From an uncultured Granulicella sp. (lineage in GTDB: Bacteria > Acidobacteriota > Terriglobia > Terriglobales > Acidobacteriaceae), in assembly GCA_937873145.1 (NCBI GenBank), contig CALMVK010000231.1, positions 1 through 34,318 on the forward strand: a stretch of DNA of 34,318 bases, written 5' to 3'. Both the position numbers and the translations under genes were made by a program. Within the stretch, counting starts at the first letter, position 1. Every line of letters starts with the position of its first letter. Shown one piece after another: positions 28,070 through 29,782 of this stretch. The notes under the pieces are model-generated. The model ran no database searches. It was not told the DNA's origin and saw only the letters and a list, made by a program, of their open reading frames with translations.

Positions 28070-29320
<1,251 letters not shown>

Positions 29321-29353
29321 GGAGGTGTGTTCTTTTCTTAAGGGATGAGCTTT

Positions 29354-29402
29354 GAAGCGAGGAGAGAAAGGAGGAAGGTACGGAGAGAGGAGAGTGCGGA
29401 GG
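29354..29402 (-). promoter_or_regulatory. C-rich, G-poor rho leader (candidate rut site)
   Basis: In the minus-strand transcript these 49 nt contain 26 C, 18 T, 3 G and 2 A by my count, with many YC dinucleotides. Such a C-over-G bubble is the classic feature of a Rho utilisation site. It lies 34 nt before the rho start codon. A hairpin (AGAGAGC with GCTCTCT, about 29425-29456) lies just upstream. E. coli rho is autoregulated by Rho-dependent termination in its leader; the same here is inferred. Confidence 0.5.
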
Positions 29403-29551
29403 CGAAACTTGGTTTTGAACCAGAGAGAGCACGCTGCCGACTCAAGCGGCTCTCTGAACCTGAGATGTGTGCGGGGTTACTGCAGGAATACTAACGTAAA
29501 TGCGGACATTCTGAATACAACTTAAGTGGCAATGGTGAAACTGCCACGCGA

Positions 29552-29782
29552 CTAAGCCGCGCGGCGTTCCCGATGGTCCGTCACGGAAATCTTTTCCACC
29601 TTCGACTCCGATCCATCATCCATCGGAACCGTGTCCTTGAAACGATCCAGCACTTCGTTGGTCGTGTCCTGCAGACGAGTGTTTGGTTTGTGCAACTTAC
29701 GAGTAGCTTTCGCAGCCAGCTGACACAACTGATACCGGTTTGTAACGTGCGTAAGTGCTCCAAAGATCAGATCTGAGCGCAT
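29552..29782 (-). CDS. rpoZ: RNA polymerase omega subunit (acidobacterial form)
   Basis: A 76-residue protein. THVTNRYQLCQLAAKATRKL and the following NTRLQDTTNEVLDRF resemble the omega-subunit core (xxNRYELVxxAAKRARQL). Omega helps assemble beta-prime into RNA polymerase. The N-terminal MRSDLIFGAL replaces the usual MARVT start, which I believe is the form seen in Acidobacteria. GAGGAGG lies 7 nt before the ATG. It precedes rho on the same strand; a weak hairpin with GTGGCA/TGCCAC (29526-29547) follows the stop. The usual neighbour gmk is not seen. Confidence 0.8.
   Translation of the reverse strand: MRSDLIFGALTHVTNRYQLCQLAAKATRKLHKPNTRLQDTTNEVLDRFKDTVPMDDGSESKVEKISVTDHRERRAA

Follow-up and report, generated by a model that had tools for sequence, protein, structure and literature searches.

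In Escherichia coli, synthesis of the transcription termination factor Rho is under autogenous control through the leader of rho. Autogenous regulation of rho in Bacillus subtilis was reportedly described by Ingham in 1999, as cited in PMC12350095. An excerpt of the citing paper likewise reports autogenous rho attenuation in B. subtilis, and in its H-SELEX of the rho region B. subtilis Rho gave no peak and E. coli Rho two peaks (PMC12350095). In Salmonella, the rho leader is subject to premature termination or attenuation, and the small RNA SraL pairs with it, as stated in an excerpt of PMC6582626. For Acidobacteria, the earlier note had held that no such site is known to have been described; this is uncontradicted among the matches listed from the open-licence PMC literature, which contain no description of an acidobacterial rho leader or of its autoregulation.

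The window, that is, the whole stretch of 34,318 bases analysed here, comes from a soil bacterium and carries rho on its minus strand downstream of a short omega-like ORF. The rho leader between them is probably a rut (Rho-loading) site for autogenous attenuation of rho; we infer Rho binding, termination and feedback from the properties described below. The locus comprises the following features.

28070..29320, minus strand: rho, transcription termination factor, 416 aa (TIGR00767, 720 bits)
29321..29430, minus strand: probable Rho-loading (rut) region, the last 110 nt of the rho leader (MFE -0.054 kcal/mol/nt)
29354..29402, minus strand: C-rich, G-poor core of the rho leader, 49 nt, CCTCCGCACTCTCC... 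(C26 T18 G3 A2)
29395..29400, minus strand: TCCGCA copy at -80 from the ATG, near the position seen in relatives (-78/-79 in many of them)
29526-29547, minus strand: upstream hairpin, GUGGCAGU/AUUGCCAC, in the MFE fold, overlapping the stop-codon hairpin
29543-29565, minus strand: G+C hairpin GCCGCGCG/CGCGUGGC with the rpoZ-like stop codon in its loop, read by eye
29552..29782, minus strand: omega-like (rpoZ-like) ORF, 76 aa, adjoining rho in the family relatives examined, below curated cut-offs

The leader occupies the same position directly before rho as the E. coli rhoL-rho attenuator, and rut loading is expected. The C>G bias is, however, stronger here (0.22 vs 0.08 per 150 nt), a TCYGCA block is found here, no rhoL-like peptide is evident, and the upstream gene is rpoZ-like, whereas in E. 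coli it is trxA. As here, the candidate rut site of B. subtilis, a member of another phylum, is placed in the 5′UTR of rho in the excerpt of PMC12350095. Termination in the leader is the candidate mechanism as in Salmonella, but the Salmonella leader pairs with its sRNA, while a small-RNA candidate described below pairs poorly with the leaders studied here.

The gap before rho is 231 nt long (29321-29551, with the rho ATG at 29320), just as the earlier note had given it, but the naming of its upstream gene as rpoZ is a weak assignment: the ORF of the window scores 15.6 bits against the omega family (cut-off 23.6) and 12.6 bits against Pfam Rpb6 (cut-off 26), and Rpb6 is matched by five of ten members with E values up to 1 (best 0.034). 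An omega-like ORF is present in 60 of the 62 genomes of the genus; its N-terminal ~50 residues are highly conserved among ten aligned members, yet these stay under the Pfam and NCBIfam omega cut-offs. The encoded Rho aligns over residues 1-415 to solved Rho, the chains of which we take to be E. coli Rho. Its RNA-binding domain resembles that of solved Rho, and it retains R66 within GYGFLR (GFGFLR in solved Rho), the residue whose R66S change disrupts the primary RNA site of E. coli Rho according to an excerpt of PMC7815308. In L109, L113, L142, L148 and other loci, an in-frame ATG lies 21 nt upstream (ATGGAAACYACYCAGGTACTC), and rho may start earlier there, which would make the AGGT ribosome-site-like sequence coding. 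Many genomes of Acidobacteriota outside the family have two or three matches to the N-terminal half of Rho, and extra rho copies may be common in them.

The 49-nt core starts with CCTCCGCAC, likely the counterpart of a conserved TCCGCAC, and ends 33 nt 5′ of the rho ATG. Base counting on the minus strand agrees with the 26 C against 3 G of the earlier note, and the tract does lie just before the rho start, as claimed. Its C-G of +23 is the highest for any 49-mer of the window on both strands; three other places reach +20 or more, each at +20. Controls were 105 gaps of 100-400 nt from twenty 20-kb stretches of three genus genomes, including the window's own, with genes and starts assigned by a simple, rough script; because of a 4-kb overlap between two of the 20 stretches, a few gaps may count twice. 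None of the 105 control gaps reaches +23 in 49 nt (maximum 17), and none reaches the (C-G)/150 of the window leader, which is 0.22 (controls: mean -0.011, sd 0.081, 95th percentile 0.119, maximum 0.180). The first criterion of RhoTermPredict is a 78-nt stretch with C>G, and further rut criteria are C residues regularly spaced every 11-13 nt and a pause site downstream (PMC6407284, as excerpted). The best 78-nt C/G ratio of the window is 5.83, well above 1; genus rho leaders have a median of 4.12 and a minimum of 2.92, and controls a median of 1.43, a 95th percentile of 2.46 and a maximum of 4.83. Within the fold of the full gap, the 49-mer is 0.48 unpaired (0.47 for the remaining gap), and shuffled versions of the entire 231-nt gap fold slightly less than the gap itself (z -1.61). 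An Rfam search of the window gave no match, and one of three rho loci (L019, L028 and L004) gave only two matches, of 20.9 and 20.8 bits against cut-offs of 70 and 75.

The earlier note had proposed looking for the C-rich bias in relatives, and it is present there. All 59 distinct genus leaders exceed a (C-G)/150 of 0.12 (mean 0.249, minimum 0.153), a threshold set at about the 95th percentile of the 105 control gaps, and the window leader lies slightly under the genus mean. Among 49 further distinct leaders of relatives, some of which may come from the same genus, 45 exceed it (mean 0.209, minimum 0.071), and the value is positive in all 108 leaders. Left out of these sets were two identical genus gaps, 38 duplicate gaps and two loci without rho, and one duplicate among ten family loci. 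Rho loci outside the family show no bias, with 3 of 29 above 0.12, although start sites there are uncertain (30 were taken, and one without a usable start was left out). On the 49-nt measure, genus leaders range from +13 to +25 and overlap the controls with their maximum of +17; in genome G018, the rho leader is matched or surpassed by 1 of that genome's 31 controls. The E. coli rho leader, taken without an E. coli background, reaches only +9 on the 49-nt measure and 0.08 on the 150-nt one. Since this leader is known to be attenuated and nevertheless scores low, the C-G measure cannot count as a validated test for autoregulation.

Besides composition, many genus leaders have in common a block of ~93 nt, with the consensus GGCCTTCCGCACGACCCCCTCGTCAAGCAGATCCCGCCTCAGTTCCAAACAATCCCTCCTAA...CCAGGTAAAACATG. 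A sequence-only model of this block, built from 24 of the 59 genus leaders, gave 48 matches with E<0.002 in 47 of the 62 genomes, all of them at rho and no more than 377 nt away from the omega-like ORF; of the weaker matches among those listed (E from 0.006 up), some lie at rho and others elsewhere, at the level expected by chance for 62 genomes. Of 200 family genomes sampled, 13 have a match at E<=0.01; nine of these belong to the same genus, and the matches of the other four are weak (0.0019-0.007); that in G068 is on contig C56 and its rho on C26. In pairwise comparisons of 57 leaders, core identity is 0.71, compared with 0.47 for the 4-fold degenerate positions of rho and 32% for the upstream gap, which points to purifying selection on the conserved core; a value of 0.90 applies to 30 leaders picked for a recognisable core, and 0.71 is that of the unpicked set. 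The TCCGCAcgACCCC...GCAGATCCCGCC block, which many genus members have, shows that selection acts on sequence as well as on composition. The earlier note had described a site of composition only; the bias stands, but the block held by many relatives is unexplained by composition. It is also more specific than a generic rut site requires, which counts against the rut reading.

It is to be considered whether the leader is mainly a sequence-specific RNA-level site, made of TCYGCA and C-runs, for another protein or RNA controlling rho translation or stability, its C-richness following from the repeated motif. The restriction of the 48 strong block matches to rho fits such a site, and so does the motif itself: 82 non-redundant leaders (19 of 101 having been removed as near-duplicates) hold 120 copies of TCYGCA against 16.1 after shuffling, with one to four copies in 68 of the 82, and the density is 6.98 per kb in rho leaders, whereas control gaps have 0.77 per kb. 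As a general feature of leaders the motif was rejected, the control gaps having 26 copies against 20.0 expected. It occurs, moreover, in 39 of 40 copies of the conserved small-RNA candidate. On the other hand, the window and several relatives without the block still keep the C>G bias. The block model R1 finds no match at the rho leader of the window species, whose core identity to relatives, 0.42, is at the level of neutral sites (0.43); most of the block has been lost there, while the strong C>G bias and the TCCGCA at -80 have been kept, and composition thus outliving sequence is an argument for a rut-like role. The RNAalifold structure of the block has seven weak pairs, none with compensatory change, and is unproven. 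In a search of either strand, the 13-mer YCCGCACGACCCC occurs only at rho in G007, G008, G009 and G013, so these four genomes contain no perfectly complementary RNA at the 13-mer level (shorter seeds are possible), and the longer TCYGCANNAYCCC is found in just 6 of the 40 small-RNA copies. A site mainly for another partner is unlikely on this balance, and it would be compatible with a rut site, not exclusive of it.

The rho leaders L017 (in G030) and L036 (in G001) have extra inserts in the block that resemble small hairpins. They lie between the CGACCCC-like part and GTC, at the loop tip, hinting at a tolerated loop position. As a short pattern specific to rho, TCYGCANNAYCCC was rejected, with 244 places in 13 genomes against 78 for the reversed control; 30 contexts among the places listed were 26 coding and four intergenic by a crude gene finder, one of the four being the rho leader L340.

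Genus rho leaders are also open. The MFE of their last 110 nt averages -0.109 kcal/mol/nt in the 59 leaders, against -0.257 in the controls, and none of the 105 control gaps is as open as the genus mean. The leader might be kept unfolded simply for translation, without Rho feedback, as it is more open than every control mean examined. This is quite improbable, however, considering the leaders of other genes in the genus (29 for rpsT, 29 for groES and 30 for rpsB; one of 30 was dropped each for rpsT and groES, and the rpsB start used is apparently ~5 codons inside the gene). Their folding is close to that of random gaps (mean MFE of -0.28 to -0.31), and on average they lack the C bias: mean (C-G)/110 is -0.034 for rpsT, 0.011 for groES and 0.042 for rpsB, with maxima of 0.145, 0.100 and 0.109, respectively. 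Rut-like composition thus sits at the rho leader and is absent, on average, from control gaps and these three leader sets. Furthermore, A and U could provide openness, yet the last 110 nt of the 59 genus rho leaders contain 0.39 C and 0.14 G (A 0.25, T 0.22), and no Shine-Dalgarno sequence is evident by eye in the window.

Start codons are scarce in the same 110 nt of the genus leaders as far as ATG (4 of 59) and GTG (5 of 59) are concerned. TTG, an alternative start codon, is present in 21 of 59, and given this number translation of a short ORF in the leader is possible. A rhoL-like leader peptide was not supported, as an ATG/GTG ORF of 9 or more codons exists in just 12 of the 59 genus leaders. 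The upstream part of the window gap has two short ORFs within 29477-29547 on the minus strand.

29491-29547, minus strand: short ORF of 18 codons from GTG
29477-29509, minus strand: short ORF of 10 codons from ATG

The small-RNA candidate that shares TCYGCA with the rho leaders is intergenic and ~110-130 nt long, and was met via the contexts of the short motif in two genomes.

G000:C3:12269-12398, minus strand: small-RNA candidate in the window's own genome (L390), a model match
L360-L389, L390 and L391-L399: copies of the small-RNA candidate

A model from two copies has at least one full-length match in 58 of the 62 genus genomes, two in G021 and G027, and three additional weak matches within the 62; beyond the genus, one match was obtained, in another genus of the family, among 149 genomes drawn from the phylum. 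In 30 aligned copies (28 distinct), 5 of 25 pairs have compensatory changes and 97.4% of the cells are paired, against 29-56% when slid, figures counted on an alignment that had been fitted to the structure; the pair types are unremarkable, 62 of 500 shuffles reaching their number. The 40 copies have CAACT and GCGTC boxes upstream, presumably an ECF-like promoter, and two hairpins with TCYGCA between them in 39 of 40; the motif is exposed, and the 3′ hairpin is terminator-like. The gene upstream in L390 and L392 is, we assume, DUF1501-like. No Rfam match near the cut-off was found at the five loci searched. The link of this RNA to rho is weak: the hexamer TCYGCA is the only thing shared, and the chance of one copy in a 110-nt RNA at 0.77 per kb is about one in twelve. 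Pairing of the small RNA with the rho leader was rejected, as it is predicted to be weaker than for 105 of 105, 93 of 101 and 106 of 106 control leaders. That the rho leader is a node of a small-RNA circuit, in which a partner, possibly Rho, recognises UCYGCA beside C-runs and the small RNA is a decoy, is accordingly a doubtful idea with little probability. If it were true, the small RNA, once induced by stress, would draw the partner away from the rho leader, and the Rho level would change.

Finally, the 44 pyrimidines in the 49-nt tract of the window might suggest a polypurine/polypyrimidine structure formed by the DNA itself (a triplex or a G-rich strand), or else an accident of base composition in this species. 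Either is highly improbable, because relatives keep C>G without the pyrimidine tract and background gaps are without such bias.

Returning to the rut site, transcription could reach the leader from within the gap or from upstream. Three elements of the gap could belong to a promoter.

29510-29515, minus strand: candidate -35 TTCAGA, with a spacer of 16 to TAGTAT, by eye
29488..29493, minus strand: candidate -10 TAGTAT of a rho promoter, by eye
29481..29486, minus strand: CCTGCA directly 3′ of the -10-like TAGTAT, from the sequence

The A at 29481 is a possible transcription start. A sigma-70 scan of the window did not return the candidate TTCAGA-N16-TAGTAT. Among 99 gaps, 28 contain the extended -10 TGnTAnnnT and 8 contain TATAAT, compared with 4 of 99 and 2 for the reversed patterns, while the plain TAnnWT is about equally frequent both ways (51 vs 50). 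A promoter inside the gap is thus likely in part of the group, and the candidate of the window is a weak one. As to transcription from upstream, the hairpin that the earlier note had seen in the gap is present in the MFE fold at 29526-29547, and it and the hairpin around the stop codon (29543-29565) are mutually exclusive. The latter has a counterpart in most of the leaders printed, and GCGCGG is found 52 times in the gaps against 2.8 expected; this stop-codon hairpin of the omega-like gene may end or slow transcription arriving from upstream.

The computed support for autogenous attenuation is that the leader is biased in composition, open, poor in ATG and GTG, conserved in relatives and unlike the control leaders, and that the RNA-binding domain of Rho resembles that of solved Rho. 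The candidate rut site of the earlier note gains support from the bias in relatives, the openness, the few ATG and GTG codons and the retained R66, but whereas the 49 nt are C-rich and G-poor as described, the site is larger: it takes in ~110 nt at the 3′ end of the leader, or 150 nt if the excess of C over G is the measure. As the composition and openness of the leader are what Rho likes, the simplest reading is that Rho would load on its own leader. A transcript from the gap promoter, or one reading through from the rpoZ-like gene, would carry the rho leader, an RNA of ~110-150 nt that is C-rich, G-poor, largely unfolded and probably ribosome-free. When free Rho is plentiful, it would load on this leader, translocate 5′ to 3′, catch RNA polymerase in the leader or the early coding region and end the transcript, lowering Rho synthesis; with Rho occupied elsewhere, polymerase would read through into rho. 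This kind of mechanism is known; what appears to be new is the lineage, together with the conserved block and how strong the bias is.

Rho sets termination genome-wide, and the steadiness of its level is therefore basic. If an independent lineage has kept a rut-like rho leader in which a core can be recognised, self-attenuation would gain weight as a design that has recurred. Dozens of aligned leaders would then form a natural set for finding what Rho needs from a rut site, and the recurrent TCYGCA motif is a concrete target for mutation.
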